From the NCBI RefSeq assembly GCF_900102005.1, contig NZ_LT627736.1:2480001-2544000 (forward strand): a DNA stretch of 64,000 nt, read 5' to 3'. Positions 774 to 64,000 of the stretch are shown here, piece after piece (the first letter of the stretch is position 1; the number at the start of each line of letters is the position of its first letter). The position numbers and the translations under genes are program-made. The notes beneath the pieces are model-generated. The model was not told where the DNA came from. It did no database searches and worked only from the letters and a program-made list of their open reading frames with translations. The stretch comes from Microbacterium sp. LKL04. Lineage in GTDB: Bacteria > Actinomycetota > Actinomycetes > Actinomycetales > Microbacteriaceae.

Positions 774-1418
774 TCAGCGCACAGTCGCGCGGATCACCCG
801 TGTCGGCTCCTCGACGATGCCGTCGCCGATGGGCTCGACGCGGACATCCGACAACCGGAACTTGCGGACGATCTTCTCTGCTGCCGCGATCTCGTTCGCC
901 GCGTTCGCGCCCTTCAGCAGGATCAACTCCCCGCCGTTCCGGACGAGGGGTGCGGTGATGGGGATGAGCGTACGGAATGCACTGAGCGCGCGCGCCGTCA
1001 CCGCATCCAGGACGGGACCTTCCGTCCAGTCCTCGCCGCGCGCACGGACGATCTCGACGTTGTCGAGCCCCAGCGCGTCAGCCTGCTCGGTCAACCAGGC
1101 GATGCGCCGCTCCATCGGCTCGACGAGCACCCAGCGCACGTCGGGCCGCGCGATCGCGAGGACGAGGCCGGGGAGACCCGCACCGGATCCGATGTCGCCG
1201 ACGCGAGATCCTGCGGTGAACAACGGAGCCGCAACGCCGCTGTTCAGAATGTGGCGCGTCCAAATGCGGGGGAGTTCGAGCGGACCGATGAGCCCGCGTT
1301 CCTCGCCCTGTGCGATCAGCGCTGCGGTGAACCGACGCGCGAGATCAACCCGATCGCCGAAGACGGATGCCGCGGCATCCGGTTCAGCCTCGGGTGTTTC
1401 ACGTGAAACATCACCCAC
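774..1418 (-). CDS. rsmG: 16S rRNA (guanine-N7) methyltransferase RsmG/GidB
   Basis: SAM-dependent enzyme that methylates N7 of G527 (E. coli numbering) of 16S rRNA; its loss is a known route to low-level streptomycin resistance. The 214-residue product has the family length. It carries the SAM-binding stretch VGDIGSGAGLPGL, then LVEPMERR and the C-terminal half of the Rossmann fold (ARALSAF, LLKG). I chose the GTG at 1418, which overlaps the jag stop by 8 bp. The open frame extends further upstream but that part lies inside jag and does not look like the family. A parS site is embedded in codons 3-8, encoding VSRET. Confidence 0.93.
   Translation of the reverse strand: MGDVSRETPEAEPDAAASVFGDRVDLARRFTAALIAQGEERGLIGPLELPRIWTRHILNSGVAAPLFTAGSRVGDIGSGAGLPGLVLAIARPDVRWVLVEPMERRIAWLTEQADALGLDNVEIVRARGEDWTEGPVLDAVTARALSAFRTLIPITAPLVRNGGELILLKGANAANEIAAAEKIVRKFRLSDVRVEPIGDGIVEEPTRVIRATVR
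1395..1410. other. parS site 4, inside rsmG
   Basis: Perfect TGTTTCACGTGAAACA within the first codons of rsmG, 1 bp past the jag stop codon. Intragenic parS at this place is known in other actinobacteria and Gram-positives. Here it is read as part of the RsmG N-terminus. Confidence 0.93.
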
Positions 1419-1914
1419 GGCGGAGAACCGTGTGGCGGTCCGCACCTTCGCCGTAGGACTCGGACACCAGGCCGTGTTCTGCGGCGATGTCGTGCACGAG
1501 CTTGCGCTCGTAGCTGGACATCGGTGGGAGGGATGCCTGCGAGGCACCGTCGTCGAGGCGCTCGAGGGCTCGCTCGACGAGCTTCTGCAGCTGGCCTCGA
1601 CGGGCGTCACGGGATCCACCGACGTCCAGGATCAGACGCGAGAAGCGTCCCGTCTTCGTCTGCACAGCGATGCGGGTGAGTTCCTGAAGCGCCTGCACCG
1701 TGTCGGGATCGGCGAGCAGCGACAGCGCGCCGGCCTGCTCGTTCTCGACCGAGACGTAGGCGCGGCCCGCACGCACGTCGAGCGTCAGGTCGCCGTCGAT
1801 GTCGGCGATGTCGAGGATCCCCTCGACGAAGTCGGCCGCGATGTCGCCTTCCTGCTCGAGCTCGTCGACGGTGGGCGCGGGGCGGGCGCCGGCGGTGTTG
1901 TCAGTCGTGGTCAT
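1411..1914 (-). CDS. jag: Jag/KhpB-type RNA-binding protein (KH + R3H)
   Basis: Single-stranded nucleic-acid-binding protein of the Jag/SpoIIIJ-associated family, 167 residues. An acidic N-terminus is followed by a KH-like domain (about residues 40-100) and a C-terminal R3H domain with the RxxxH signature in SSYERKLVHDIAAEHG. The Jag-N domain of firmicute members is absent, as usual in actinobacteria. The gene sits between yidC and rsmG in the conserved order, 20 bp downstream of yidC, so probably on the same message. Homologues act in RNA regulation of cell division and envelope growth; the exact targets here are not known. Confidence 0.9.
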   Translation of the reverse strand: MTTTDNTAGARPAPTVDELEQEGDIAADFVEGILDIADIDGDLTLDVRAGRAYVSVENEQAGALSLLADPDTVQALQELTRIAVQTKTGRFSRLILDVGGSRDARRGQLQKLVERALERLDDGASQASLPPMSSYERKLVHDIAAEHGLVSESYGEGADRHTVLRRG

Positions 1915-1934
1915 CGTGAATCCTTCAGTCCTCG

Positions 1935-3032
1935 TCAGGACGAGCTGTCCTGCTTGCCCTTCTGAGCCTGCTTCTTGGCACGGTTCTTACCTACCGGCTG
2001 TTGACGCTTCGGCGCAGCCGCCTTCGCACGCTCCGCCTCTTCGAGCAGACGCTGCTGCTCGGCCTCGTACTTGGCCATCGGGATGACCTTGCCGGTGGCG
2101 TCGAGCGCCTTGCCCTTCTTCGCGAGACGCTCTTCGCGCGCCTTCGCGGCCTCGGAGCCGGGGGTCGGCAGGTTCCGGATGACGATGAACTGCTGGACCA
2201 TGGTCCAGATGTTCGACGTGAACCAGTACATGACCACGCCGAGGGGGAAGAAGACACCCGAGAAGATGAAGGCGAGGGGGAGGACGTAGAGCATGATGCG
2301 CTGCATCTGGTACGCCTGGCCGGTCTTGGCCTCGGGGGACAGGTTCTTCGAGATGATCTGCAGCTGCGTGAAGAACTGCGACAGGATCATCAGGATGACG
2401 AGGATCACGAGGATCACGACCGTCGCGGTCTGATTCGTGTTGATCGCGTCGATCATGTTGACGTGCAGCGGCGCGACACCGAAGAGCTCGGCGTTGTAGA
2501 ACTCGCGCGTCAGCGTGGCATTGAGAAGGCCGGTGCCACCGACGCCCCACTCCGCGTGCCGCTTGACCTCGCTGAGCGTGTAGAACATGCCGAGAAGGAT
2601 CGGCATCTGCACCAGGAGTGGAAGGCAGCTCGACAGCGGCGTCGTGCCGTGCTTCTTGTACATCGCCATGGTCTCGCGGCTCATGGCCTCGCGAGAGAGC
2701 TGGTCGCGCTTGCCGCGGTAGCGCTCCTGGATCTTGCGCATCTCGGGCGCGAGCTCCATCATCTTGCGCTGGCTCTTGATCTGCCGCACGAACAGCGGGA
2801 TCAGCGCGGCACGCACGACGATGACGAGACCGACGATGGACAAAACCCAGGTCAGACCCGCATCCGGCTGCAAACCGATGGACGTGAAGATCCAGTGCCA
2901 GAAGACGAGGATCGCCTCGACGACGAACTTGAACGGCCACAGGATGACACTGAAGAAGTCCGTGCCGCCGGGTTTCGGGGTCGTCGGGTTCGGAAGGGGC
3001 GGCAGGGTCGCCGCGGCGGCGAAGAGATCCAC
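1935..3032 (-). CDS. yidC: Membrane protein insertase YidC/Oxa1
   Basis: Inserts and folds inner-membrane proteins, alone or with SecYEG. Product about 365 residues. It has an N-terminal hydrophobic segment, the conserved first-core-TM arginine in VIVVRAALIPLF, the charged hairpin with KSQRKMMELAPEM, then TM segments including LPLLVQMPILLGMFYTL and a basic Lys/Ala-rich cytoplasmic tail for ribosome contact. The single-membrane Gram-positive form lacks the large periplasmic domain. The start is either GTG 3032 or the adjacent TTG 3035; AAAGGA lies upstream of both. It lies 3-6 bp downstream of yidD. Confidence 0.95.
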   Translation of the reverse strand: MDLFAAAATLPPLPNPTTPKPGGTDFFSVILWPFKFVVEAILVFWHWIFTSIGLQPDAGLTWVLSIVGLVIVVRAALIPLFVRQIKSQRKMMELAPEMRKIQERYRGKRDQLSREAMSRETMAMYKKHGTTPLSSCLPLLVQMPILLGMFYTLSEVKRHAEWGVGGTGLLNATLTREFYNAELFGVAPLHVNMIDAINTNQTATVVILVILVILMILSQFFTQLQIISKNLSPEAKTGQAYQMQRIMLYVLPLAFIFSGVFFPLGVVMYWFTSNIWTMVQQFIVIRNLPTPGSEAAKAREERLAKKGKALDATGKVIPMAKYEAEQQRLLEEAERAKAAAPKRQQPVGKNRAKKQAQKGKQDSSS

Positions 3033-3038
3033 CAAGGA

Positions 3039-3395
3039 TCAGTCCTTTCTGCGGGGCACGACGAAGCCGTGCGAAGTCAGGTCGTGCCGGAAGTGCGTGT
3101 GGGCGGGGACATCATCGATGCCGCCCGCTGCCCACGGGTGGCATCGTGCGAGGCGGGCGGCTGCGAGTGCCGACCCTTTGATCACACCGTGCTGCTGCAC
3201 CGCGCCGAGTGCATAGGCCGAACACGAGGGATAGTACTTGCAGACATCGCCGTACGTCTGGGAGATGGTGGCGCGGTATCCGTGCAGGAGACCGATCACG
3301 GCGTTGCGGGGGAGAAGGACGAGGGATGCCGGCAGTGCTGCGGCATCCACCACCGCTTCTCCTCGCGTGTAGGAGGGGAGAGGTGCGGAGCTCAC
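3039..3395 (-). CDS. yidD: Membrane protein insertion efficiency factor YidD
   Basis: Small membrane-associated factor that helps YidC-dependent insertion. The family core is plain: KYYPSCSAYALGAVQQHG, then RLARCHPWAAGGIDDVP. I chose GTG 3395 because it overlaps the rnpA stop in a GTGA arrangement, giving 118 residues; an upstream in-frame ATG at 3419 would overlap rnpA by 28 bp. The conserved rnpA-yidD-yidC order supports the call. Confidence 0.92.
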   Translation of the reverse strand: MSSAPLPSYTRGEAVVDAAALPASLVLLPRNAVIGLLHGYRATISQTYGDVCKYYPSCSAYALGAVQQHGVIKGSALAAARLARCHPWAAGGIDDVPAHTHFRHDLTSHGFVVPRRKD

Positions 3396-7235: not shown

Positions 7236-8402
7236 GTGATCGTGGAGCATCTGAGTCTCGTCGACTTCCGCAACTACGCGTCGGCCGAGGTGGGCCTCGT
7301 CGCCGGTCCGAACGTCTTCGTCGGCCGTAACGGTCAGGGCAAGACGAATCTCGCCGAGGCGATCGGCTACTTCGCGACGCTCGGCTCGCACCGCGTCTCA
7401 CAGGACGCGCCGATGGTCCGTTACGGAGCGGATGCCGCCTTCGTCCGCGCGCGGCTCGGTTACGGCGACCGGCGCATCCAGCTCGAGGCGCAGCTCAACC
7501 GGTCCGGGTCGAACAAGGCGCGGGTCAACGGCTCGCCGGTACGGACCTCCGAACTCCCGCGCTACGCGCAGGTGGTGCTGTTCGCCCCCGAAGACCTGCA
7601 GATCGTCCGCGGCGATCCGTCGTCGCGCCGTCGGTTCGCCGATCAGCTGCTCGTGCAGCGCTCCCCCCGCATGACCGGTGTGCTGGCCGACTACGACCGC
7701 GTACTCAAGCAGCGCACCGCCCTGCTGAAATCCGCGCGGGCCAGGAGCCTCAAGGCAGAGCAGCTCACGACCCTCGACGTCTGGGACGACAAGCTCGTCT
7801 CGCTCGGGACCGAGATCATCCTGGCGCGGCTCCGTCTGGCGGAGGACCTCGCGCAGCCGATGCGCGATGCCTACGAGGCGATCGCCGGCGCCGATCACGG
7901 CCCGCAGCTCGAATGGATGCTGACCGTGGAGGGTGCCGACCCCGAGGACGACGGCGCTGCCGTGACGCAGACGGGTTCGGCGATCGGAGCGGACGCGATC
8001 GCGGCATCCTTCCGCGCCGGTCTCGCCGCGAAACGCGCGCAGGAACTCGAGCGCGGTGTGACCCTCGTCGGGCCGCACCGGGATGATCTGCTCCTCCGGC
8101 TCCGCGGGCTCCCCGTGAAGGGATACGCGTCGCACGGCGAGTCGTGGTCGACCGCGCTGTCGCTGCGATTGTCGTCGGCGCAGCTCCTGCGCGACCAGTT
8201 GCGACTCGGTGACCCGATCGTCATCCTCGACGACGTCTTCGCCGAACTCGACGCCGATCGTCGGACACGTCTGGCGGGGGTCGTCGCGGACTTCGAACAG
8301 GTCATCGTCACCGCCGCCGTCGAGGGTGACGTCCCCGAGGCCCTCCGCGTCCGGACCGTCCGTGTCGAGGCGGGAACGATCGTGGCGGATGCCGATGTCT
8401 GA
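7236..8402 (+). CDS. recF: DNA replication and repair protein RecF
   Basis: SMC-like ATPase that promotes RecA loading at gaps. 388 residues from GTG 7236, with AAGGAGG just upstream. Walker A GRNGQGKT (30-37), the ABC-type signature region LSLRLSSAQLLR near residue 310, and Walker B PIVILDDVFAELD followed by the D-loop. The N-terminus VEHLSLVDFRNYASAEV fits the family. The stop overlaps the start of the DUF721 gene by 8 bp, implying translational coupling. Confidence 0.96.
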   Translation: MIVEHLSLVDFRNYASAEVGLVAGPNVFVGRNGQGKTNLAEAIGYFATLGSHRVSQDAPMVRYGADAAFVRARLGYGDRRIQLEAQLNRSGSNKARVNGSPVRTSELPRYAQVVLFAPEDLQIVRGDPSSRRRFADQLLVQRSPRMTGVLADYDRVLKQRTALLKSARARSLKAEQLTTLDVWDDKLVSLGTEIILARLRLAEDLAQPMRDAYEAIAGADHGPQLEWMLTVEGADPEDDGAAVTQTGSAIGADAIAASFRAGLAAKRAQELERGVTLVGPHRDDLLLRLRGLPVKGYASHGESWSTALSLRLSSAQLLRDQLRLGDPIVILDDVFAELDADRRTRLAGVVADFEQVIVTAAVEGDVPEALRVRTVRVEAGTIVADADV

Positions 8403-8883
8403 CGCCGGCGGCATCCCCGAGACGGTCTCCACTTACCTGCGCCTGCGCGGTCTCGAGCCCTCCGCGGCCAAGAAGCGCCGCAAGCGGCGGCGGAACGACG
8501 ACGACGAGAACCAGCCGTTCACGTCGGGGCGGGACCCGAAGGGAATGGGCGATCTGCTCGCCGACCTCACGCGTCAGTCCGGATGGGACGTGCAACTCGC
8601 CAAGGAGGACCTCGTCCTCAAGTGGGCCGAGGTCGCCGGTGAGGAGACGGCGCGTCACGCAGATCCCGTCGCGCTGAGCGACGGTGTGCTCACCGTCCAG
8701 TGCGATTCGACCGCGTGGGCGAAGAACCTGCACCTCATGCGCGCGACGATCGTGACGGAGCTCATCCGACGGTTCCCCGAAGCCGGCGTCGAATCGGTCC
8801 GTTTCGTGGGCCCGGACGTCCCCTCATGGAAATGGGGCCCCAGAGCCGTTCCAGGGCGGGGCCCTCGCGATACCTACGGGTGA
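8395..8883 (+). CDS. DUF721 (DciA-like) protein
   Basis: 162-residue protein starting MSDAGGIPETVSTYLRLRG at ATG 8395, overlapping the recF end. A basic stretch KKRRKRRR (about residues 26-33) is followed by the DUF721 domain (about 50-150): LLADLTRQSGWDVQL, KWAEVAGEETARHADPV, LTVQCDSTAWAKNL. DUF721 proteins between recF and gyrB are standard in actinobacteria. The family includes DciA, which loads the replicative helicase in bacteria lacking DnaC/DnaI; that role is probable but inferred from the family and position. Confidence 0.88.
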   Translation: MSDAGGIPETVSTYLRLRGLEPSAAKKRRKRRRNDDDENQPFTSGRDPKGMGDLLADLTRQSGWDVQLAKEDLVLKWAEVAGEETARHADPVALSDGVLTVQCDSTAWAKNLHLMRATIVTELIRRFPEAGVESVRFVGPDVPSWKWGPRAVPGRGPRDTYG

Positions 8884-30254: not shown

Positions 30255-30316
30255 CAGACAGTGCGACACGAAGCCGGTCGGTGGTGAGAACCCCGACCGG
30301 TTTCGTCGTCGGTGGG
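30253..30316 (+). repeat. 64-bp direct repeat, left copy; tRNA-Leu terminator
   Basis: Begins in the last two bases of tRNA-Leu. It contains a hairpin CGAAGCCGGTCGG / CCGACCGGTTTCG that looks like the tRNA terminator. It matches 39337-39400 at 61 of 64 positions, same orientation. The pair brackets the carbohydrate island and is a candidate att-like duplication. Confidence 0.8.
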
Positions 30317-30321
30317 CGAGT

Positions 30322-30462
30322 TCAGCCGCGTTTGCTGCTGATGAAGCTGACCATGCGGCGCATGTCGTCGATGGCGAACGCCGCCGCTGAGGTGAGTGCG
30401 CGGTAGCCGTAGTCGCGCGCTCGCCGTTTCTCCGGATTGCCCAGGTCGGTCGGCGTCAGCTT
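30322..30462 (-). pseudogene. C-terminal gene remnant beside tRNA-Leu
   Basis: A 46-codon frame ending at TGA 30322-30324 reads with normal high-G+C codon use: basic RRARDYGYRALTSAAAFAI then DDMRRMVSFISSKRG. Upstream it is closed by TGA (30463-30465) with no usable start, so it looks like the 3' end of a gene whose N-terminus was lost, probably at the island junction. I do not recognise the family. A chance frame cannot be excluded. Confidence 0.35.
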
Positions 30463-30579
30463 TCACCTAACGGCTGTTGAACTTGGCGTGGCTTCGGAGT
30501 TCGTCCCTGTCCAGCGGCGCAGCCGGGCTCGCGCCTGACTCGGTCATTCGTTGCTCAAAAGCGATGGTGGTGCACGTCG
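30463..30579. other. Left junction of the island, non-coding
   Basis: 117 bp between the remnant and the LacI stop. No gene, tRNA-like fold or strong repeat seen. Confidence 0.4.
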
Positions 30580-31629
30580 TCAGTCCCGACGCCAAGCAGC
30601 ACCCAGCGAAGACGTACGCGGGATGAGGCGTGGTTCGAGTGTCACTGTTCTGTTCAGTGCTGTGGGACTTTCGATCCGCTCCAGCAAAAGATCCGCAGCA
30701 GCCTGTCCCATCTCTTCACCGGGCTGAGCGACGGTCGAGATTGGCACGGCACTCTCAGATGCGAAGTGGTTGTTGTCATACCCGGTGACCGCGATGTCGC
30801 CGGGCACAGAAAAGCCTTCCACCTCACCGAACACCTGGATGAGACCGATCGCGAGGAGGTCGGAGGCTGCGATCACCGCGTCGAATGCACCGGCGCCCCG
30901 GCTCAAGAGCCGCTTTGCCACCTCGCGCCCGTGACGAATATTCAGCCCCCGCGTTTCGGCGATCTCGAGCGATGCGCCTGGGACCTCCGCGACGGCCTCG
31001 CGGGCGCCCTCCAGTCGCGCGGAAACCGCGGAGAGGAACAGCGGACCACCTGTGAAGACCAGCCGCCTCCGACCGAGGGCGAGGAGATGGTCAGCGGCCA
31101 AGCGGCCACCGTGATGCTCGTCGACTATGACACCCGAGTAGGCGAGCGATGGGGACTCAAAGTTGACGAGAACGGTCGGTGTTGAACGAGTGGGCAGGAA
31201 GTTTGAACGAGCGAGGTCCGTGTCGAGGGGAGCAATGATGATGCCGGCAACTCTCGAGCGATCGAGCAACTCGAGGTTGTGAACTTCACGAGTGGGCTCG
31301 ATGTCGGAGTTGACGATCAGGACGTCCATGCCGCGTCGTCGCATCACCGCTTCGACGCCTCGTGCGATGTCGACGAAGAACGAGTTGCCGAGGTCGGCAA
31401 GTACGAGGCCCACGGAAGTACTTACTCCGGCGGCGAGGGATCGCGCTGCGTCGTTCCGCACGAACCCGAGTTCCGCGATTGCCGACAAGACTCGTCGCCT
31501 TGTTGCTTCCCGCACCTTCTCGGGGTTGTTCAGCGTGTTCGATACCGTGCCCAGGGCGACCCCTGCGTGCGCAGCCACGTCGGCCATGCTGGGCAGCGGC
31601 TTCGGCGCCGGTGACCGCTCCATGACCAT
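30580..31629 (-). CDS. LacI-family transcriptional regulator (island regulator)
   Basis: 349 residues. HTH at about 15-35 (SMADVAAHAGVALGTVSNTLNNPEKV), hinge RNDAARSLAAG, then a periplasmic-binding-protein-like effector domain (VGLVLADLGNSFFVDIARGVE, DAVIAASDLLAIGL, GYDNNHFASESAVPISTV). It diverges from the sugar-transport operon, and two palindromes fit as its operators in the shared 179-bp gap. It probably represses the importer and hydrolases until an oligosaccharide derived from the substrate appears. Start ATG 31629 or 31623. Confidence 0.9.
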   Translation of the reverse strand: MVMERSPAPKPLPSMADVAAHAGVALGTVSNTLNNPEKVREATRRRVLSAIAELGFVRNDAARSLAAGVSTSVGLVLADLGNSFFVDIARGVEAVMRRRGMDVLIVNSDIEPTREVHNLELLDRSRVAGIIIAPLDTDLARSNFLPTRSTPTVLVNFESPSLAYSGVIVDEHHGGRLAADHLLALGRRRLVFTGGPLFLSAVSARLEGAREAVAEVPGASLEIAETRGLNIRHGREVAKRLLSRGAGAFDAVIAASDLLAIGLIQVFGEVEGFSVPGDIAVTGYDNNHFASESAVPISTVAQPGEEMGQAAADLLLERIESPTALNRTVTLEPRLIPRTSSLGAAWRRD

Positions 31630-31699
31630 CGGATCCCTTCACCGCGACGAGTCGGGCGACGTCGTGGCAGTTGCGATCATATCGGTGACCGCATCTGAA

Positions 31700-31713
31700 A
31701 TGAAGCGTTTCAT
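31700..31713. promoter_or_regulatory. LacI-type operator 1
   Basis: ATGAAGCGTTTCAT, a near-perfect palindrome with the central CG typical of LacI-family operators, between lacI and the binding-protein gene. Its centre is 66 bp from that of operator 2. Confidence 0.6.
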
Positions 31714-31733
31714 ATTCGTTACCTCCCGCATCC

Positions 31734-31739: not shown

Positions 31740-31765
31740 GTCCATAAAACCGGTGTCATCGTTCG

Positions 31766-31779: not shown

Positions 31780-31808
31780 AACCGAGGCGTCACATTCAAG
31801 GAGGAATA

Positions 31809-33128: not shown

Positions 33129-33138
33129 GCCACACCAC

Positions 33139-33169
33139 GGTCAGGGCGGGCCCTGGGCCCGCCCTGACC
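33139..33169 (+). terminator. Intra-operon hairpin after the binding-protein gene
   Basis: Perfect 13-bp stem (33139-33151 with 33157-33169) and 5-nt loop, 10 bp past the stop. No T-run. Such hairpins after the binding-protein gene usually stabilise its 3' end or attenuate the permeases, keeping binding protein in excess. Confidence 0.7.
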
Positions 33170-33198
33170 TCCGCTCATCCACACCCGAAAGACCCCCA

Positions 33199-34086
33199 AT
33201 GAACAAAGTCCTGGGCGACAAGCGCGCCATCTTCGTCCTCGTAGGCCCAGCCCTGTTGGTCTACTCCCTGATCATGCTGATCCCGATCGTGTGGTCGCTC
33301 TTCTACACGGTTCAGGACGGTAACCCCATCACGGGGTTCGAGTTCAACGGCGTCGACAACTTCGTCACGTTCTTCCAGGACCCCGCCGCGTGGAACGCCA
33401 TCGGATTCACCCTGATGTACGCCGCGATCCTGACGGTCCTCCAGGTGGGCGTCGGCTACCTGCTTGCGCTGATGTACGTCTTTTGGCTGAGGAAGGCGTC
33501 GGGCCTCATCCGGACGATCGTCTTCTTCCCGGTCGTTCTTCCGACCGTCGCCGTCGCTCTCCTGTTCCAGCGGCTCTTCGAAGCAGCACCCACCACAGGC
33601 CCCGTGAACTCCCTGCTCAACGCCTTCGGGCTGGAGTCGGTGGACTGGTTCGGGACGCCGGGAGCCGCTTTCTGGATCATCATCCTGATGGACCTGTGGC
33701 GGTCGATGGGGTTCTACGCCGTGCTCCTGTACGCAGGCCTCGTCGACATCCCCGACGAGCTCCTCGAATCCGCACGCATCGACGGTGCCGCTGGGTGGAA
33801 GCTCGTCCGGACCATCGTCCTACCCCTGTCGCTGCCGGTGCTGCTGTCCTCGCTGATCTTCAGCATCAACGGCACCCTCAAAGTCTTCGACACCGTCGTA
33901 GCGCTCACCAACGGCGGTCCAGGCAGCGCCACCACCCCGCTCACCCTCTACATGTTCCGCACGTCCTTCACCTACGGCCAGTACGGGTACGGAAGCACGA
34001 TCGCGCTCATGCTCACCATCCTCTGCCTCCTGTTTACCGTGTTCATCTTCCGGTCAACGCGCCGCGACCTCACGAAGGAGAGCTGA
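33199..34086 (+). CDS. Sugar ABC transporter permease 1 (MalF-like)
   Basis: 295 residues, six TM segments starting AIFVLVGPALLVYSLIMLIPIVWSLFYTV. The permease EAA loop that contacts the ATPase is ESARIDGAAGWKLVRTIVLPLS. It pairs with the next gene as the heterodimeric pore of a CUT1 importer. No ATPase gene is in the island, so a shared MsiK-type ATPase elsewhere is expected, which is usual for actinobacterial CUT1 systems. ATG 33199. Confidence 0.92.
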   Translation: MNKVLGDKRAIFVLVGPALLVYSLIMLIPIVWSLFYTVQDGNPITGFEFNGVDNFVTFFQDPAAWNAIGFTLMYAAILTVLQVGVGYLLALMYVFWLRKASGLIRTIVFFPVVLPTVAVALLFQRLFEAAPTTGPVNSLLNAFGLESVDWFGTPGAAFWIIILMDLWRSMGFYAVLLYAGLVDIPDELLESARIDGAAGWKLVRTIVLPLSLPVLLSSLIFSINGTLKVFDTVVALTNGGPGSATTPLTLYMFRTSFTYGQYGYGSTIALMLTILCLLFTVFIFRSTRRDLTKES

Positions 34087-34088
34087 CC

Positions 34089-34997
34089 ATGACGACCACC
34101 AGCCTGCTGGTATCCGGCAAGCGACTCGAGACCGCGACGCGACCCCCCGCTCGCCGCCGTCGAGGCCCGAAGGACTTCTTCGGACGTCTCCCCCTACGGA
34201 TCGGCATCGCGATCCTCCTGATCATCGAGATCTACCCGATGGTCTGGATGCTGCTCGGTTCCTTCAAAACGCAGAACGAGTTCCTCAATGAGCCGTTCTG
34301 GGCGCTCCCGAGCTCGTTCGGCTTCGAGAACTACGTCGAGGTGTTCACGACCGGGGAGTTCGGCAAGTACGTCCTCAACAGCGTGATCGCCGTCTTCCCA
34401 TCCCTCGCGATCATCCTCGTGTTCGGCGCCGCAGCTGGCTTCGCTCTCGAGGTAATGGTGTGGAAAGGACGGGGCACGGTCCTGCTCCTCTTCCTTGCCG
34501 GGATCATGGTTCCGGCTCAGATGATCCTGCTGCCGCTGTTCACGATCTACTTCCGGACGGGCCTGAACGGATCGCTCTGGCCGCTGATCCTCACCTACAC
34601 GGCGATCGGCATGCCGCTGACCGTCTTCATGATGGCCACGTTCTTCCGAGCCGTGCCCCGCGAGATCTTCGAAGCCTCCACGCTCGATGGTGCCAATATC
34701 TTCCGGTCCTTCTGGTCCGTAGGCCTGCCGCTCGTGCGGAACGCGCTGTTCACCGTGGGACTCGTCCAGTTCTTCTTCCTCTGGAACGACCTGCTCATCG
34801 CGCTGACGTTCACCAACAGCAGCGATCTCCGTACGATCCAGGTCGGATTGCTCAACTTCACCGGCCAGTACGGAGCTGTCCAATACGGGCCTACCTTCGC
34901 CGCCATCGCCGTGAATGTCTTCGGCACCCTCCTCATCTACCTCTTCCTCAACCAGCAGGTCATGAAGGGCCTCACCGCAGGATCAGTGAAAGGCTGA
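34089..34997 (+). CDS. Sugar ABC transporter permease 2 (MalG-like)
   Basis: 302 residues; basic N-terminal extension of about 35 residues, then six TM segments. EAA loop EASTLDGANIFRSFWSVGLPLVR. The C-terminal QQVMKGLTAGSVKG is the classic end of CUT1 MalG-type permeases. It starts 2 bp after permease 1 and ends 1 bp before the GH78 gene, so these are co-translated. Confidence 0.92.
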   Translation: MTTTSLLVSGKRLETATRPPARRRRGPKDFFGRLPLRIGIAILLIIEIYPMVWMLLGSFKTQNEFLNEPFWALPSSFGFENYVEVFTTGEFGKYVLNSVIAVFPSLAIILVFGAAAGFALEVMVWKGRGTVLLLFLAGIMVPAQMILLPLFTIYFRTGLNGSLWPLILTYTAIGMPLTVFMMATFFRAVPREIFEASTLDGANIFRSFWSVGLPLVRNALFTVGLVQFFFLWNDLLIALTFTNSSDLRTIQVGLLNFTGQYGAVQYGPTFAAIAVNVFGTLLIYLFLNQQVMKGLTAGSVKG

Positions 34998-34998
34998 C

Positions 34999-37596
34999 AT
35001 GACCACCATCACCGAGCTCTGGCTCGAGAACAGGCGCGGCGGAAAGACGATCGGCATCGGAGAAGCGGCACCCCGCATCTCCTTCACCGCCGTCGGGCCC
35101 GGACCGTTCGACCTTCGCTTCGCGCACGACGACGGCCGCGTAGAGATGACCGCCGTTTCGGACACGCAGCTTGTCGCTTGGCCCTTTGCGCCGCTGAGCG
35201 CCCGGGAGGGCGGCGAACTGCGCGCCGGGTCCACCGAGGACGCCCTCTCGGTCCGGGTTGAGACAGGCCTCGGGGACGACTGGAACGTCGACTTCGTCTC
35301 ACCTTCCGTCGAAGCGGACCACGAAGGGCCTCGCCCTGCATGGCTGTTGCGTGCAACCTTCGACCTCGCGCGAGTCCCCGGCGACATCGCCCGCGCCCGC
35401 GTGTACGCGACGGCGCACGGAGTCTACGAACTGGAACTCAACGGCGCGCGCGTCGGGGACGACGTCCTGGCACCCGGCTGGACCAGCTACGGCCACCGGA
35501 TCCGCTATCAGACGCACGATGTCACCGACGGGCTCGTCGGCGGAACGAACGTCATCGGAGCCTGGCTCGCGGACGGCTGGTACAGAGGCCATATCGGCTT
35601 TGATGGCGGGCTGTGGGACATCTACGGCACCGACGTCGCCCTGCTCGCTCAGCTCGAGGTCACCACCACCGACGGCACCATGCATCACATTCCGCTGGAG
35701 TGGGCGTGGTCCGCGTCACCCATCACGGCGGTCGGCCTGTACGAAGGGGAAACCTTCGACGCGAGGCTCCTGCCGCGCGGCTGGTCGACGCGATCCTTCG
35801 ACGCCGCTGCCTGGAGCCCGGTCCGGGTCCTGCCCCGCGCCGACTTCACCGCGCGCATCGAATCACCCACGGCCCTTCCCGTACAACAGGTCGAAACCAT
35901 CGCGCCGGTGTCCGCGGAGCGTCGACCAAACGGTCGCATCCGCCTGGACTTCGGTCAGAACATCTCCGGCGTCATCCGGATCCGAGTACGAGCTGAAGCC
36001 GGCCGCACTGTGCGGCTCCATCACGCCGAAGTCATCGAGAACGGCGAACTCGGAACTCGACCGCTCCGCGGCGCCACGTCCATCGACACGTACACGACGC
36101 GCGGAGGCGGGGAAGAGGTCTACACGCCGCGGTTCACCATCCACGGGTTCCAGTACGCGGAACTGGAGAACTGGCCCGGCGAACTCACTGATGGGGACGT
36201 GGAAGCCGTGGTCATCCACACCAGCATGCGTCAGACGGCCTGGTTCGAGTCATCCCATCCCGGTCTGAACAAGCTCCACTCGAACGTGCAGTGGAGCATG
36301 CGCGACAACTTCGTCGACCTCCCCACCGACTGTCCGCAACGCGATGAGCGCGTCGGCTGGACCGGCGACATCCAGGTTTTCGCACCCACCGCGCTGCGCC
36401 TCTTCGCTGCTCAGGGAACTTTGACGGGATGGCTCAGGGATCTCGCCTTCGAGCAGGCCGAGCAAGGGCATGTGCCCCAGTTCGTGCCGTGGATCGAATG
36501 CGGTTTCCCCAACTTCCCGACAGCCGCGTGGGGAGACGCCGCGGTGGTCGTGCCGTGGGAGATGTACCTCGCCGACGGCGATACCCGGATCCTCACCGAG
36601 CAGTACGCGAGCATGTGCGCCTGGGTGGACCTGGTCGACAACCTCACCGGCAATAGCGGCCTCTGGAACGGCGGCTTCCAGCTCGGCGACTGGCTTGACC
36701 CCACCGCACCGCCGGAGGACCCGGGCAAGTCCCACACCGATAAGTACCTCGTAGCGACTGCCTACCACGTACGCACCGCACGCATCCTCGCGGACACCGC
36801 AGCGCTCCTCGGCAAAGAGGAGGACGCACAGCGATATGCGGCGATCGCCGATCGCGCCACACGTGCGTTCCAGGACGAGTTCATCTCCGGATCCGGTCGG
36901 GTTGTCAGCGACACACCCACGTCCATCGCCGTCGCCCTCGTGTTCGACCTCTTCGAGAGCGAGGCTCAGGCTGGACGGGCCGGAAGGCGGCTCCTCGAGC
37001 TGGTGGAGCATAGCGGGTTCCATATCTCCACGGGATTCGTAGGCACGCCCATCATCTGCGACGCGCTCGTCCTCGCAGGAAGTGTCGACTACGCGTACCA
37101 CCTGCTTCGGCAGGAGGAGTTGCCGTCGTGGCTCTATCCGGTGTCGATGGGAGCCACCACTATCTGGGAGCGGTGGGACTCGATGCTGCCCGACGGCAAC
37201 ATCAACCCCGGCGACATGACCTCCTTCAACCACTACGCGCTGGGGGCCGTCGCCAGCTTCCTTCACGAGACCGTCGCCGGGCTCGCCAGCGATGCGCCCG
37301 GGTGGAAACAGGTGCGGTACCAGCCGCGACCCGGGGGCGGACTGACCCACGCATCCGCTCGCTATGACAGCGTCCGCGGCACCGCCTCCATCCGATGGGC
37401 GCGCGACGGGGACGCCCTGACCATCCGCATCCAGGTGCCCGCCGCCTCCACCGGTGTCGTCGTCCTACCCGGCAGCGGCCGGGAGATCGAGGTCGGTCCC
37501 GGCGAGCACACCTTCACCGAGTCATTCCGACCCGCCAGCGACGATCCGGCGGCACCGGTCGTCGGATGGCGCAAACCTGAACCCGTTGACGCCTGA
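34999..37596 (+). CDS. Alpha-L-rhamnosidase, GH78
   Basis: Hydrolyses terminal alpha-L-rhamnosyl groups. 865 residues without a signal peptide, so cytoplasmic, acting on imported oligosaccharides. N-terminal beta-sandwich domains (about 1-330), (alpha/alpha)6 catalytic domain (about 390-760) with DCPQRDERVGWTGD (Glu450, matching the general acid of characterised GH78) and WERWD (Glu724, matching the catalytic base), and a C-terminal beta-sandwich. The motifs and length fit the family well. It follows permease 2 by one base. Confidence 0.93.
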   Translation: MTTITELWLENRRGGKTIGIGEAAPRISFTAVGPGPFDLRFAHDDGRVEMTAVSDTQLVAWPFAPLSAREGGELRAGSTEDALSVRVETGLGDDWNVDFVSPSVEADHEGPRPAWLLRATFDLARVPGDIARARVYATAHGVYELELNGARVGDDVLAPGWTSYGHRIRYQTHDVTDGLVGGTNVIGAWLADGWYRGHIGFDGGLWDIYGTDVALLAQLEVTTTDGTMHHIPLEWAWSASPITAVGLYEGETFDARLLPRGWSTRSFDAAAWSPVRVLPRADFTARIESPTALPVQQVETIAPVSAERRPNGRIRLDFGQNISGVIRIRVRAEAGRTVRLHHAEVIENGELGTRPLRGATSIDTYTTRGGGEEVYTPRFTIHGFQYAELENWPGELTDGDVEAVVIHTSMRQTAWFESSHPGLNKLHSNVQWSMRDNFVDLPTDCPQRDERVGWTGDIQVFAPTALRLFAAQGTLTGWLRDLAFEQAEQGHVPQFVPWIECGFPNFPTAAWGDAAVVVPWEMYLADGDTRILTEQYASMCAWVDLVDNLTGNSGLWNGGFQLGDWLDPTAPPEDPGKSHTDKYLVATAYHVRTARILADTAALLGKEEDAQRYAAIADRATRAFQDEFISGSGRVVSDTPTSIAVALVFDLFESEAQAGRAGRRLLELVEHSGFHISTGFVGTPIICDALVLAGSVDYAYHLLRQEELPSWLYPVSMGATTIWERWDSMLPDGNINPGDMTSFNHYALGAVASFLHETVAGLASDAPGWKQVRYQPRPGGGLTHASARYDSVRGTASIRWARDGDALTIRIQVPAASTGVVVLPGSGREIEVGPGEHTFTESFRPASDDPAAPVVGWRKPEPVDA

Positions 37597-37617
37597 GCGC
37601 GTTGCAGAGAGACGTCC

Positions 37618-38655
37618 ATGCAGACATCCATCAAGCCCGGCCAGGTGTGGCTCGACACCAAGGGCGAACGTATCCACGCGCACGGCGGCTCTGTGATCAC
37701 CGTCGACGGTGTCCACTACTGGTACGGCGAGAACAAAGAGTTCTCCGCACCCGGAAGCGGTATCTGGCACTGGGGTGTCCGGTGCTACTCGTCGACCGAC
37801 CTCTACAACTGGGAGGACCGCGGGCTGATCATCCCGCCGGTGGAAGACGATGAAGACTCTCCGCTGCACCCGAAGCAGCTCGTCGACCGGCCGCACATCA
37901 TCTACAACGCCGAGACGAAGAAGTTCGTCGCGTGGCTCAAGATCATGACCAAGGGCTCACTACAGCGCTCGACCGTCCTGGTCGCCGACGACATCCTCGG
38001 ACCATATGAGATCGTGCGCACCTGGTTGAAACCGTTGGACATGAGCGCCGGGGACTTTGATCTGGTCGTCGACCCGCACGACGGCAAGGGGTACTACTAC
38101 TTCGAACGCGTGCACTCGGAGATGATCTGTGCCGATCTCACCACCGACTACACCGACGTCACCGGCTACTACTCCACCCACTTCCCGCAGCCGCAACCGC
38201 CTTTCGTCCGCGAAGCTCCCGCCCACCTGTACCGCAACCGGCTGCACTACCTCCTGACCTCGGGAACAACCGGGTACTACCCGAACCCGTCAGAAGCGGC
38301 CGTATCGCGCTCCTACCATGGTCCGTTCGAGGTGCTCGGAGACCTGCACCCGACCGACGAATCCCGCACCTCGTTCCACTCCCAGATCTCCTCCGTCTTC
38401 AAACACCCGGACAAGAAGGACCTCTACATCGCGATCGCCGACCGGTGGCTACCGAGGTACCTGGACCACGGCGCCCGCGCCCACGACGCGTTCGTCGAGC
38501 ACTTCGCCCCTGGCAAGGACGGCGATGAGCCGATGGAAGAGTTCGCCGACGTCGACACGACCATCGCGGACTACGTCTGGCTGCCCATCCGCTTCGACGG
38601 CGACCGGCCCGTCATCGAATGGCGCCACGAATGGACCATCGAAGAGTTTGACTGA
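37618..38655 (+). CDS. Glycoside hydrolase, GH43-like (possible exo-beta-1,3-galactanase type)
   Basis: 345 residues, no signal peptide. Five-bladed-propeller GH43 hallmarks: IHAHGGSVITVDGVHYWYGENK near the N-terminus, VDRPHIIYN with the Asp, and REAPAHLYRNRLHYLLTSG whose Glu fits the general acid. The AHGG...YYWYGE arrangement resembles GH43 subfamily 24 exo-beta-1,3-galactanases, but I cannot fix the subfamily. Linked to GH78 and the importer. Followed by a strong terminator hairpin. Confidence 0.82.
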   Translation: MQTSIKPGQVWLDTKGERIHAHGGSVITVDGVHYWYGENKEFSAPGSGIWHWGVRCYSSTDLYNWEDRGLIIPPVEDDEDSPLHPKQLVDRPHIIYNAETKKFVAWLKIMTKGSLQRSTVLVADDILGPYEIVRTWLKPLDMSAGDFDLVVDPHDGKGYYYFERVHSEMICADLTTDYTDVTGYYSTHFPQPQPPFVREAPAHLYRNRLHYLLTSGTTGYYPNPSEAAVSRSYHGPFEVLGDLHPTDESRTSFHSQISSVFKHPDKKDLYIAIADRWLPRYLDHGARAHDAFVEHFAPGKDGDEPMEEFADVDTTIADYVWLPIRFDGDRPVIEWRHEWTIEEFD

Positions 38656-38660
38656 ACGCA

Positions 38661-38691
38661 CCAGGGCCCGGGCAGTACGCCCGGGCCTTGG
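38661..38691 (+). terminator. Terminator after the GH43-like gene
   Basis: Stem 38661-38673 (CCAGGGCCCGGGC) pairs with 38679-38691 (GCCCGGGCCTTGG), one wobble, 5-nt loop, then TCTTT. Six bases after the stop. It separates the importer-GH78-GH43 unit from the truncated gene. Confidence 0.75.
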
Positions 38692-38736
38692 TCTTTGGGG
38701 CACTGTCGCCCCGCACACCAAGCAAAGGAGCTTGAC

Positions 38737-39210
38737 ATGTCCGCGTTGAAACCGTGGCGCGCCGGCATTGCCGTCGCTGCCACCGCCGCCCTCCTTGCAG
38801 TAGGGGTCCAGCCGTTCAACCACGAATCCGCGGCCGCCGTCACGGGCGCTGGCGGGGCAGTGGCGGTCACTTATACGTCATACAACGTCGACGAAGGTTC
38901 GTACCGGCTGAGCCCCCAGGCCGACAAGACGCTCACCGCCCTGACGAACAGCTCGGCCACCACCATCAACGTCAACCCGTCCGTTTCCTATCAGGCCTAC
39001 GAGGGCTGGGGGTCGTCCCTCGAGGACGCCACCATCTACCACCTTGGTCGCCTCAGCGCGCAGAACCGCGAATCTGCTCTGCAGACGCTCGTCAGTCGCG
39101 TACCGGCCCCGAACGACGGCGTCTGCCGAGGGCCTCCAGGTCGGACGAGTATCACTTCGAACGGGAGGGGCCTCCGGATGTCTGTTCGGCGAAGCCCGGC
39201 CCGTGCCTGA
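38737..39210 (+). pseudogene. Truncated secreted glycoside hydrolase, GH30-like
   Basis: ATG 38737 with AAAGGAG upstream. Clear signal peptide (MSALKPWRAGIAVAATAALLAVGV) and the start of a GH30-type catalytic domain: SVSYQAYEGWGSSLEDATIYHLGRLS, followed by NRESALQTLVS. After about residue 122 (near 39100) the frame turns into low-quality Arg/Gly/Pro sequence and stops at 39210, so only about a quarter of a normal enzyme remains. The break is likely an island-edge deletion or recombination point. The GH30 call rests on one motif. Confidence 0.7.
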
Positions 39211-39336
39211 GACGCTGCCGTGGGAATCACCGCTGACCTGGGAGTTGGAAAATGTCAGCCGCAAACGTGGAAAGCGACGGAGCCCACCTCTCGCGGGCCC
39301 TGTCGGTGCCTGGCCCCGAGGAAATCCAAACACACC
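39211..39336. other. Scrambled sequence at the island's right edge
   Basis: 126 bp with no convincing gene. A short frame from ATG 39252 (MSAANVESDGAHLSRALSV) runs into the right repeat and ends inside it. Codon use shifts between frames, as expected of a junction made of fragments. Confidence 0.4.
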
Positions 39337-39400
39337 CACAGACAGTGCGACACGAAGCCGGTTGGTGGTGAGAACCCCGACCGGCTTCGTCGTTGGTGGG
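39337..39400 (+). repeat. 64-bp direct repeat, right copy
   Basis: Matches 30253-30316 at 61 of 64 positions. Here the hairpin reads CGAAGCCGGTTGG / CCGACCGGCTTCG. The three differences keep pairing (Watson-Crick or G-T wobble) or fall outside the stem, so the copy stays foldable as a terminator. There is no tRNA gene on this side. The bases to 39495 show nothing further. Confidence 0.8.
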
Positions 39401-39495
39401 GCACCTTTCTTCGCGGCGCGGGCGGTGTAGGTCTCGCACCAGCGGGAGTGGCAAGCTACCTGAGGCATCCACTCTGCTGGGACGGCGAGCGACCA

Positions 39496-61760: not shown

Positions 61761-62744
61761 ATGAAGAAGACTGCTTTCGCAGCAGCGGCCATGCTGGGGG
61801 CACTGGCACTCGTCGTCACCGGATGCGCGGGCAACGGCGCACCCGGCGCGGGTGGCAACGGTGGCGGCGGCGACCTGATCACGGTCGGGTTCGCACAGAC
61901 CGGCTCCGAGTCCGGGTGGCGCGCAGCCAACACCGAGTCGATGAAGAAGGCGTTCTCGGAGGAGAACGGGTTCAAGCTGACGTTCAACGCAGCGGACAAC
62001 AAGCAGGAGGCGCAGATCTCCGCCGTCCGCAACTTCATCAACCAGGGCGTCGACGCCATCGTCATCGCCCCGATCACGGTCGACGGCTGGGACGACGTCC
62101 TGAAGGAAGCGAAGGATGCCGGCATCCCGGTCATCCTCGAAGACCGCACGGTCTCGGCCAGTGACGACCTCTACGCCTCGTGGGTCGGCCTCGACTTCGA
62201 GCAGGAGGGTCGCACCGCCGGCGAGTGGGTCAAGGAGAACTTCGACGGCAAGGGCGCGAACCTCGTCGTCCTCGAGGGCACGACCGGCTCGTCGGCCGCA
62301 CTCGACCGCGCCACGGGCTTCAACGAGGCCATCGAGGGCACGGACGTCAAGGTGATGGACTCGCAGACGGGTGACTTCACCCGCGACGGCGGCAAGAAGG
62401 TCATGGAGGGCTACCTCCAGAAGTACGGCAAGGACATCAACGTGCTGTTCGCGCACAACGACGACATGGGTCTGGGTGCACTCGACGCCATCAAGGCGGC
62501 GGGACTGACCCCCGGCAAGGACATCCAGATCGTCACGATCGACGCGGTGAAGGACGGCATGACCGCCCTCGCGGGCGGCGAATTCAACTTCATCGTGGAG
62601 TGCAACCCGCTCCTGGGCGAGAAGGCCGCCGAGCTCGTGAAGTCCGTCGTCGACGGCAAGACCGTCGAGAAGCGCACGATCGTCGAGGACCAGTCGTTCA
62701 CGCAGGAGCAGGCCGCCGAGGTCCTGGACTCCCGCCCGTACTGA
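61761..62744 (+). CDS. ytfQ: Sugar ABC transporter substrate-binding lipoprotein, YtfQ-like
   Basis: 327 residues from ATG 61761 with AAGGAGG 8 bp upstream. Lipobox (LALVVTGC, Cys22). Periplasmic-binding fold of the ribose/galactofuranose (CUT2) type: VGFAQTGSESGWRAANTESMKKAF, FINQGVDAIVIAPITVDGWDDVLKEAKDAGIPVILEDR, GTTGSSAALDRATGFNEAIE, VLFAHNDDMGLGALDAI. Sequence and order match E. coli YtfQ, the galactofuranose-binding protein. Substrate may be galactofuranose, arabinose or ribose. The following hairpin is a likely mRNA-stabilising element. Confidence 0.9.
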   Translation: MKKTAFAAAAMLGALALVVTGCAGNGAPGAGGNGGGGDLITVGFAQTGSESGWRAANTESMKKAFSEENGFKLTFNAADNKQEAQISAVRNFINQGVDAIVIAPITVDGWDDVLKEAKDAGIPVILEDRTVSASDDLYASWVGLDFEQEGRTAGEWVKENFDGKGANLVVLEGTTGSSAALDRATGFNEAIEGTDVKVMDSQTGDFTRDGGKKVMEGYLQKYGKDINVLFAHNDDMGLGALDAIKAAGLTPGKDIQIVTIDAVKDGMTALAGGEFNFIVECNPLLGEKAAELVKSVVDGKTVEKRTIVEDQSFTQEQAAEVLDSRPY

Positions 62745-62784
62745 TCGGTCGCCACCCCTCACGATCCGCTCGGATCACCGAACC

Positions 62785-62817
62785 ACCGCCGGGGACCGGA
62801 TTCCGGTCCCCGGCGGT
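62785..62817 (+). terminator. Intra-operon hairpin after the ytfQ-like gene
   Basis: Perfect 15-bp stem (62785-62799 / 62803-62817) with a 3-nt loop, between ytfQ and the ATPase gene. Same layout as the hairpin at 33139 after the other binding-protein gene. Confidence 0.75.
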
Positions 62818-62838
62818 CATCACGGAAAGGCGCGCCCC

Positions 62839-64000
62839 ATGGTCGATGTCGCAGCCACGCCGGAATCCCCGGCCACCGTTCCGCAGCACGACGAGATCGT
62901 GCGGATGCGGGACGTCACCATCCGGTTCCCCGGCGTGCTCGCGCTGGACCGGGTCGATCTGACCCTCCGCGCCGGCGAGGTGCACACCCTCATGGGCGAG
63001 AACGGCGCCGGAAAATCGACGCTCATCAAAGCGCTCACGGGCGTCTACGCCATCAACGGCGGGACGATCGAGGTCGCCGGCGAGCAGCGCGTCTTCCGCT
63101 CGACCGCCGACGCAGAGGCATCCGGGATCTCCACGGTGTACCAGGAGGTCAACCTCTGCACGAACCTGTCGGTCGGTGAGAACGTCATGCTCGGCCGCGA
63201 GGTGCGGCGCACCGGCTTCATCGACTGGCGTGCGACCCACCGCGAGGCGACGCGTCATCTCGCCGCCCTCGGGCTCGACATCGATCCGCGGTCCGCGCTC
63301 TCGTCGCACTCCATCGCCGTGCAGCAGCTCGTCGCCATCAGCCGCGCGACGGTCGCCGACGCCCGCGTGCTCGTCCTCGACGAGCCGACCTCCAGCCTCG
63401 ACCGCAGCGAAGTCGAGCAGCTGTTCACGGTCGTGCGCGGCCTTCGCGACCGCGGCGTCGCCATCCTCTTCGTCACGCACTTCCTCGATCAGGTCTACGA
63501 GATCTCCGATCGCCTGACGGTCCTGCGCAACGGTCAGCTGGTGGGGGAGTACCTGCCGGCCGAGCTGCCGCGCGGCGAGCTCATCGCCAAGATGATCGGC
63601 CGTCAGCTCGATGAGCTCGAGGCGCTGTCCCGCACGTCCGAGCGCGAGATCGACCGCGGCGCGACGCCGGTGCTCCGCGTCGCGGGGCTCGGTCGCAAGA
63701 ACGTCATCGAACCCGTCGACATGGAGGTCTACGAGGGCGAGGTCGTCGGCATCGCCGGCCTGCTGGGCTCAGGCCGCAGCGAGCTCGTCCGTCTCGTCTA
63801 CGGCGCGGACCGCGCCGATGCCGGTACGCACGAGGTGCGGGGGGATGCCGCGCGCATCACGACCCCGCGGAACGCGATCGACAAGCGCATCGCCTTCTCG
63901 AGCGAGGACCGTCGCGCCGAGGGGATCATCGCAGACCTCACCGTCGCCGAGAACATCGTGCTCGGCATCCAGGCCAAGCGCGGCGCGATGCGTCCCATCG
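62839..64000 (+). CDS. ytfR: Sugar ABC transporter ATP-binding protein, YtfR-like (partial)
   Basis: 387 residues to the window edge, about three quarters of the usual 500; two ABC domains. ATG 62839 after CGGAAAGG. First domain: Walker A GENGAGKST (53-61), Q-loop VYQEVNL, signature-position LSSHSIAVQQLVAI, Walker B VLVLDEPTSSLD. The second domain begins near 275 (RVAGLGRKNVIEPVDMEVYEGEV) with the normally degenerate P-loop LLGSGRSEL and SSEDRRAEGII. Presumed to continue with permeases ytfT/yjfF outside the window. Confidence 0.93.
   Translation, partial: MVDVAATPESPATVPQHDEIVRMRDVTIRFPGVLALDRVDLTLRAGEVHTLMGENGAGKSTLIKALTGVYAINGGTIEVAGEQRVFRSTADAEASGISTVYQEVNLCTNLSVGENVMLGREVRRTGFIDWRATHREATRHLAALGLDIDPRSALSSHSIAVQQLVAISRATVADARVLVLDEPTSSLDRSEVEQLFTVVRGLRDRGVAILFVTHFLDQVYEISDRLTVLRNGQLVGEYLPAELPRGELIAKMIGRQLDELEALSRTSEREIDRGATPVLRVAGLGRKNVIEPVDMEVYEGEVVGIAGLLGSGRSELVRLVYGADRADAGTHEVRGDAARITTPRNAIDKRIAFSSEDRRAEGIIADLTVAENIVLGIQAKRGAMRPI

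Follow-up and report, generated by a model that had tools for sequence, protein, structure and literature searches.

The DNA examined here, called the window throughout, is a stretch of 64,000 nucleotides from Microbacterium sp. LKL04, a member of the Microbacteriaceae (C1:2480001-2544000 of a 2.92-Mb single-contig chromosome, G000). It encodes a GyrB (8984-11050) with 99% identity to that of Microbacterium oleivorans Wellendorf, it contains an accessory stretch of catabolic genes between direct repeats, and it is strewn almost from end to end with a short word, GGATGCC, whose core is the octamer GGATGCCG. It is this word, and what might read it, that concerns us here.

1365..63970, no strand: field of scattered sites, 98 GGATGCC/GGCATCC in all, 82 of them GGATGCCG/CGGCATCC (word count)
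30256..39450, no strand: accessory stretch with one GGATGCCG; two direct repeats of 79 nt, 87% identical, lie at 30238-30316 and 39322-39400 (word count, repeat comparison)

Abundance and shape of the word

A first-pass annotation of the window, made by eye, had put the word and its complement at about 92 copies where base composition predicts about 15, without strand polarity. These statements hold up: there are 98 copies (48 forward and 50 reverse, with starts from 1365 to 63964) against 14.8, 14.9 and 17.8 expected under Markov models of orders 0, 1 and 2, and G000 as a whole carries 5,015 (2477 forward and 2538 reverse, compared with 115 and 149 for a control word read backwards). The octamer GGATGCCG, which accounts for 82 of the 98 window copies, occurs 4,221 times in G000 (2094 forward and 2127 reverse, with 72 and 90 for its backward-read control), or 1.44/kb. 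The annotation had also seen the word extend beyond seven bases; the core proves to be the octamer, and the C at -1, present at 39 of the 98 copies, is only a weak preference.

At higher Markov orders the window expectation for GGATGCC climbs to 23.2 (order 3), 40.9 (order 4) and 74.1 (order 5), and the word falls outside the top 15 when window words are ranked by the highest-order model. These expectations approach the observed count because such orders absorb the word's own sub-words. In a larger set, made up of the window and twenty 20-kb stretches from across the chromosome (464 kb, hereafter our samples), GGATGCC is the top-ranked 7-mer under the fifth-order model that the annotation had proposed as a check (758 versus 575 expected), and GGATGCCG occurs 635 times versus 61, 92, 208, 413 and 577 expected at orders 2 to 6. 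Its density is similar in coding (1.36/kb) and intergenic (1.38/kb) DNA.

Could such a word be a by-product of codon, dipeptide or mutational bias? Genes were called with a simple codon-usage caller written for this study (it places starts only approximately and did not work for G051, G020 and L153), and synonymous codons were shuffled within each of the 426 genes called in our samples. Within genes GGATGCCG occurs 566 times versus 103.7 (standard deviation 7.8) after shuffling, a 5.5-fold excess that disposes of the annotation's own reservation, namely that the signal might vanish once codon and dipeptide use was modelled. All six frame and strand classes exceed their shuffle mean, the rarest with 2 sites; the excess is largest in the Asp-Ala class (245 versus 23) and the Ala-Ser class (123 versus 4.5), the very pairs at which the annotation had seen non-preferred codons forced, and the Gly-Ile class holds 142 versus 63. 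Between genes, GGATGCCG is the commonest 8-mer (67 versus 5.3 at order 2). It is true that two frame classes reach 63 and 23 copies from chance alone, and that the fifth-order model accounts for 74 of the 98 window 7-mers, partly through absorbing the word itself. Against a by-product stand the excess over the shuffle, the intergenic rank, the conservation of individual sites between close relatives and the mutually exclusive dialects described below. Provided that the shuffle is sound, it speaks against a codon or dipeptide by-product, and we regard this explanation as hardly credible. The counts support a word that is selected or driven, and that displaces preferred codons where it sits.

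The shape of the site can be read from its one-base neighbours, again relative to the synonymous shuffle. Neighbours show no excess at positions 2, 4 and 5 and a slight one at position 3, and changes of T4 are rarer than shuffled (134 versus 226 for C, 68 versus 156 for G). A C at position 1 (242 versus 170), a G at position 7 (121 versus 78) and A or T at position 6 are mildly in excess, and T at position 7 (55 versus 24.7) or position 8 (49 versus 15.5) clearly so. By these counts the word has a strict inner core and tolerant outer positions, as uptake words do.

Beyond the octamer lies a weak consensus, mainly one-sided, that reaches out to +21. At 628 coding sites, after correction for codon position, the 3' side prefers C at +8, G at +10, C or T and not G at +12, C at +13, not T at +16, not G at +20 and C at +21; the 5' side prefers C at -1, A at -2, not C at -3 and G at -6. 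Most frame classes and 48 intergenic sites point the same way; so do five sets taken, without correction, from other species and genera, apart from C at +13 and parts of the 5' side. The site is thus asymmetric, and may be about 28 bp long. The preferences +10G, +12C, +20T and +21C recur at the GGATGCG word of another genome, G100 (83 sites, no codon correction), which suggests one family of readers with a shifted core. The flanks of GGATCC words differ from those of GGATGCCG.

Acquired DNA, paired sites and gene ends

For the flanks of the accessory stretch the annotation had given 1.6-1.8 copies of GGATGCC per kb; one flank, at 1.59/kb, agrees, and the other is denser, at 2.09/kb. Its single copy in about 9 kb between the direct repeats is confirmed for 30256-39450, with 2 copies up to 41000. 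In these 9.2 kb there is one GGATGCCG where the flanks predict about 14 (Poisson P = 1.3e-5), and the stretch stands at baseline, since a Markov-2 model of the stretch itself predicts 0.87. The genes inside encode a LacI regulator, a solute-binding protein, two permeases, an alpha-L-rhamnosidase (GH78) and a GH43-like enzyme. The first 79-nt repeat of this catabolic island (30238-39400) begins inside the 3' end of a tRNA-Leu, and no integrase was found among the nine open reading frames scanned in it. Equal density in other islands was to be the counter-sign according to the annotation; a second stretch, L017 (C1:2336001-2356000), is also depleted, with 4 GGATGCCG in 20 kb. L017 carries TIR-domain and AAA_13 proteins, possibly defence genes. 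One 5-kb bin of L019 holds only 2 sites. The word is thus scarce in two accessory stretches, as expected of an uptake word in recently acquired DNA; scarcity is consistent with the recent acquisition that the annotation proposed for the island, but gives it no date.

Close pairs of sites tend to face inward, so that they could fold into hairpins. A pair scan of the window gave the following.

1365..1380, no strand: inward-facing pair GGATGCCGCGGCATCC, a perfect 8+8 inverted repeat, close to a called stop codon
14071..14086, no strand: inward-facing pair GGATGCCGCGGCATCC, in the gap that separates two convergent called genes; the stop of the first lies 3 nt before it
62114..62127, no strand: overlapping inward-facing pair GGATGCCGGCATCC, within a called gene
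3324..3348, no strand: inward-facing pair, 17 nt between starts, away from called stops
8387..8416, no strand: inward-facing pair, 22 nt between starts, away from called stops

Among pairs no more than 20 bp apart, 15 of 18 in our samples are inward-facing and hairpin-capable. Other species and genera give 5 of 9, and a set of 51 named loci, not independent because they cover one shared region, gives 25 of 35. Inward pairs lie near a called stop more often than single sites do, both in G000 (6/27 versus 42/635) and in other genomes (6/12 versus 49/530), and in G000 the first 50 bp past called stops hold 38 sites in 10,050 bp, or 3.78/kb, compared with 1.4-2.1/kb upstream of starts. Inverted pairs are a mark of uptake words, and some of those found here may act as terminators. 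Two other words were noticed in passing: the palindrome AACGATCGTT, possibly an operator, occurs 12 times in our samples versus 0.4-0.7 expected, and CACGTGAAA, which we take to resemble parS, is over-represented near the gyrase genes of many species (in the window and in many gyrB loci among L081-L160).

Orientation bears on another of the annotation's options, a recombination signal. A Chi-like hotspot would be a single-strand word read by a recombination nuclease of the AddAB/AdnAB type, protecting the cell's own DNA or steering its repair. Chi words differ between species, and GGATGCCG resembles them in being a short, abundant word, enriched in the core genome and poor in the island. E. 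coli Chi is oriented with replication and read by RecBCD, and neither property holds here. With the origin set at gyrBA and the terminus assumed opposite, the 635 sampled sites show no orientation bias on either replichore (right 170 forward and 174 reverse, left 150 and 141). The profile for RecC (TIGR01450) matched none of 25 genomes in a search that did not include AddAB or AdnAB and whose controls gave matches in both E. coli and B. subtilis, in one case above the cut-off. A RecBCD-type Chi is therefore unlikely. The Chi of another enzyme is left of the annotation's proposal, and we think it quite unlikely too, since neither the preference for inward pairs nor weak contacts out to +21 would be expected of a single-stranded 8-mer.

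Dialects across the Microbacteriaceae

The annotation had suggested a comparison with other Microbacteriaceae, and this turned up a family-wide system of words. Counts of GGATGCCG range from 14 to 4,831 across 299 genomes of the family; outside the family but within the order, 111 genomes have a median density of 0.14/kb and a maximum of 0.27/kb. Elsewhere in the family GGATGCCG is replaced by other words: GGATGCCC, GGATGCGC, GGATCCG and CAGGATCC. De novo word ranking in samples of 12-60 kb from 40 genomes found, by our reading, a clear word with a GGAT core in about 24.

GGATGCCG or CGGATGCC(G): 15 of the 40 sampled genomes
GGATGCCC: G007 and G074, with GGATGCTC in G011
GGATGCG: G026 and G020
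GGATCCG: G164 and G034
GGATCCT(G): G004 and G047
GGATGCGC: G100, in addition to these, 45 versus 7.5 at Markov order 3

GGAT is common to the dialects found, which diverge from position 5 onward (GGATGCCC, GGATGCG, GGATCC). Several exceed the synonymous shuffle: CGGATCC in six Microbacterium loci (217 versus 37.7, with 74 more in 18 kb of intergenic DNA) and in G034 (80 versus 13), and CAGGATC in G004 and G047 (30 versus 6.2). The six Microbacterium loci with the GGATCCG dialect hold only 2-4 GGATGCCG each. GGATCCG, the sole dialect placed on a tree, is one change on a quick GyrB tree (78 rows, support 80), a switch within Microbacterium; GGATCC is also found in one genome of genus g35. Four genomes of low G+C content (G010, G030, G059 and G249) gave no clear dialect.

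A few further words were over-represented in individual samples. GTTAACA occurs 12 times in 22 kb versus 0.1 expected in two loci of Microbacterium sp. Leaf159 and Leaf320 (L124 and L127), and CGGAACCA 17 times in 14.6 kb versus 0.7 in an uncultured Microbacterium (L153). In G096 (L031, L032 and L075) TCCGGATC and TGATCCGG are strongly over-represented; as their in-gene excess is small after the codon shuffle, they could represent dispersed repeats and not a dialect.

Individual sites are conserved over short distances. In alignments of our own DNA with the gyrase regions of 21 relatives, with permuted words as controls, retention of sites exceeded the controls at p<0.05 in 8 of the 16 loci that bear GGATGCCG, for example 20/24 versus 38% (L103) and 23/26 versus 43% (L085). 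None of the five loci with the GGATCCG dialect showed significant retention (1-2 sites kept of 10-15). Sites thus persist in the short term, while in the long term density stays and positions turn over.

Dialects also bear on the remaining explanations. The first follows a proposal made for the cyanobacterial repeat HIP1, GCGATCGC: an orphan DNA methyltransferase, together with associated repair, would create or maintain the repeat. HIP1 too is a very frequent octamer with alternate versions in some lineages, each matched by a methyltransferase according to Elhai 2015. Orphan methyltransferases are present in the Microbacteriaceae as well, where a solitary CcrM/YhdJ-like enzyme of family PF01555 occurs in 266 of 299 genomes (2 of 19 in other families of the order). 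Its copy in G000 is as follows.

L161:7166-7995 (G000 C1:2043168-2043995): orphan PF01555 methyltransferase, related to the YhdJ, CcrM and RsrI enzymes (PRK11524 we take to be YhdJ)

Of the four methyltransferase families searched, only PF01555 was present in all 21 genomes tested, which made it a promising reader; PF00145 (10/21), PF02086 (5/21) and PF07669 (15/22) are sporadic and absent from G000, in a search that did not cover type I HsdM. Loss of the enzyme may go with a weak word to some degree. Only 4 of 33 genomes lacking it reach 0.5/kb of GGATGCCG (13 of the 33, including G281, come from set difference), as do only 2 of the 23 that are at least 95% complete, counts that cover only genomes lacking the enzyme, and losses throughout two sampled genera (g52, 2/2; g6, 5/5) accompany weak GGATGCCG. 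There may therefore be a loose link between the enzyme and the strength of the word. As the reader, however, the enzyme was rejected: the region that we take, by domain order, for its recognition part varies little from one dialect to another, being strongly conserved, and the enzyme is absent from G100, where GGATGCGC is strong, and by set difference from G281, whose word is CGGATGCC. Nor was a methyltransferase specific to each dialect found, with specificities judged by sequence and HsdM left out of the search. Unlike HIP1, which is palindromic and whose versions match their methyltransferases, GGATGCCG is asymmetric, a palindromic core being confined to the GGATCC dialects, and the methyltransferase does not track the dialects. 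We consider a HIP1-like origin quite improbable, and the annotation's modification site finds no support in the comparison. An orphan PF01555 enzyme of such breadth merits study in its own right.

The second explanation is that an abundant protein which organises the chromosome or regulates genes binds the word, a possibility that the annotation had raised as a nucleoid-protein site. A core with weaker flanks resembles a protein-bound duplex site, and the sites are spread fairly evenly (mean 7.2 and variance 5.7 over 102 non-island 5-kb bins), though not significantly so. Divergent intergenic regions, however, are the poorest in sites (7 in 9,258 bp of our samples, 0.76/kb), which does not suggest regulation of promoters. 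The replacement of one dialect by another across the chromosome, once within a single genus, would call for a concerted change at thousands of sites, and a nucleoid-protein site fits poorly with this. We hold such a protein to be unlikely, yet worth keeping in view.

A possible uptake signal and its meaning

Overall, we believe that a DNA uptake signal, which was not among the annotation's options, is the best reading of the evidence and fits most of it: GGATGCCG would be the form taken in this genome by an uptake-signal-like sequence that runs, in several dialects, through a whole Gram-positive family, a reading to which we assign a probability of roughly 50%. Most of the remaining odds are shared among a DNA-binding protein, the Chi of another nuclease and a HIP-like repeat. 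The word would work most like the DNA uptake sequence (DUS) of the Neisseriaceae and the uptake signal sequence (USS) of the Pasteurellaceae, a likeness of function that we do not extend to membership of either class. According to Frye 2013, DUS occur in thousands of copies in and between genes and accumulate in the core genome, share a CTG core in all dialects, are congruent in their dialects with core-genome phylogeny, and form inverted pairs tied to terminators; TerminatorNet 2026 likewise places uptake words in terminators of both Neisseriaceae and Pasteurellaceae. GGATGCCG shares the copy number, the placement, the build-up in core DNA, the inverted pairs, the short core and the tolerant outer positions. 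Unlike DUS, whose receptor is ComP, it has a GGATG rather than a CTG core, belongs to another phylum without an outer membrane, and is known from sequence alone. The USS of H. influenzae, as described in Bakkali 2007, has a core and two less conserved regions on its 3' side. This is the arrangement seen here, except that USS flanks are A/T-rich runs and those of GGATGCCG are single weak preferences at +8, +10, +12, +20 and +21.

The machinery for uptake is present. In G000 a ComEA (SLBB and HHH_3 domains) adjoins ComEC; a Tad cluster (ATPase, TadBC, small pilin and TadE) adjoins a topA-like gene, topA and its neighbours being named by eye from sequence; and a type IV pilus cluster in L202 (C1:2255001-2273000) encodes PilB/PilT-like ATPases and an N-methylated pilin. 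T2SSE-type ATPases occur in 60 of 60 genomes. A close parallel is Micrococcus luteus, another actinobacterium that carries comEA, comEC and Tad/Flp genes and whose transformation requires the Tad/Flp pilus according to a review that, in the passages available, mentions no sequence preference.

We infer competence of the organism, biased uptake and the identity of the reader from these genes and sites, and the general pathway might run as follows. The DNA-binding part of the surface uptake machinery (a Tad/Flp pilus with ComEA and ComEC) would bind double-stranded DNA through the GGATG core and weak contacts over about two helical turns on one side, and this would favour DNA from the same or a close species. 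Biased uptake followed by recombination would then build up the word on either strand, within genes and outside them, wherever it is tolerated, and leave it rare in DNA that has not circulated in this way. Hairpin-oriented pairs and sites after stops would probably be tolerated, or co-opted as terminators, and a change in the specificity of the reader would set off another dialect, which would gradually take the place of its predecessor throughout the chromosome. The fuller proposal, an uptake system that arose in the Microbacteriaceae independently of Neisseriaceae and Pasteurellaceae, with an asymmetric site of about 28 bp, read at the surface, probably by the Tad/Flp pilus, and with dialects that may act as barriers to the exchange of genes among species and genera, is tentative, and we put it somewhat short of even odds.

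A number of results weigh against an uptake signal. Within the site, G000 shows no excess over the shuffle for a C at position 8, which would give the GGATGCCC dialect (44 versus 59); four control words show almost no flank preferences, but with 50-76 sites each against 628 their power is far lower; and the flanks in G100 deviate at further positions, unlike those in G000. Even spacing is not significant (P 0.06 over the 102 bins). In G000, 21 of 27 inward pairs lie away from called stops. In other genomes with GGATGCCG the density after stops is 2.04/kb, whereas three bins ahead of starts have 1.24, 2.0 and 2.6/kb, and is thus no higher than the 2.0-2.6/kb found 50-150 bp upstream of starts; the enrichment at gene ends is therefore not general. 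In phages of M. foliorum, five stretches of 20 kb contain 39 GGATGCCG in 100 kb (0.39/kb) versus about 10 expected at order 2, a mild enrichment, though sparser than the 1.44/kb of G000. Retention is not significant in 8 of the 16 GGATGCCG-bearing loci, all of about 79-83% identity; only about 24 of the 40 sampled genomes have a clear word, with about nine having none and the others being weak or doubtful; and single 20-kb samples are weaker under the shuffle (GGATGCG 17 versus 6.9 in G026, CGGATCC 24 versus 9.5 in G164).

The search for the reader adds to these. Since comEC (PF03772) is found in 60 of 60 genomes tested, motif-poor ones included, the machinery does not predict the word, and none of the ComEA/ComEC, Tad or type IV pilus genes was seen to track motif or dialect. 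A PilB-type match was not found in three genomes of the same genus with a strong word (G106, G215 and G258, with 27 of about 50 candidates scored in each); the presence of such pili does not follow the motif, and we rejected them as the reader. ComEA and ComEC of G164, which has the GGATCCG dialect, are not unusually divergent, and no reader was found. A minor pilin was considered as dialect receptor because TadE-like and 106-aa genes first seemed absent from genomes with other dialects. Similar small genes were seen when loci were read by eye in G034 and G004, with a TadE-like one in G007, so the apparent gap is a BLAST cut-off effect, and this candidate was dropped too; in G164 neither gene was found in the stretch examined. 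Past TadBC in that genome (L205:1-5571) the small Tad genes and topA were likewise not found in the stretch examined, and its Tad locus may therefore be rearranged. Literature searches returned no transformation data for Microbacterium among the matches listed; searches with the word itself and related topics returned, among the matches listed, no publication on GGATGCCG and no paper on uptake sequences in Actinobacteria.

Regardless of its reader, an asymmetric word at 1.4/kb, kept above codon use and replaceable by dialects, needs explaining. The papers on uptake words cited here name two Gram-negative families. If the uptake reading is true, a third origin in a Gram-positive family would mean that self-preferring uptake needs no outer membrane. 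In this context, differences in dialect within one genus would offer a natural test of such words as barriers between species, and the 85 sampled genera, in which the strength of the word is graded, would allow drive and selection to be separated.

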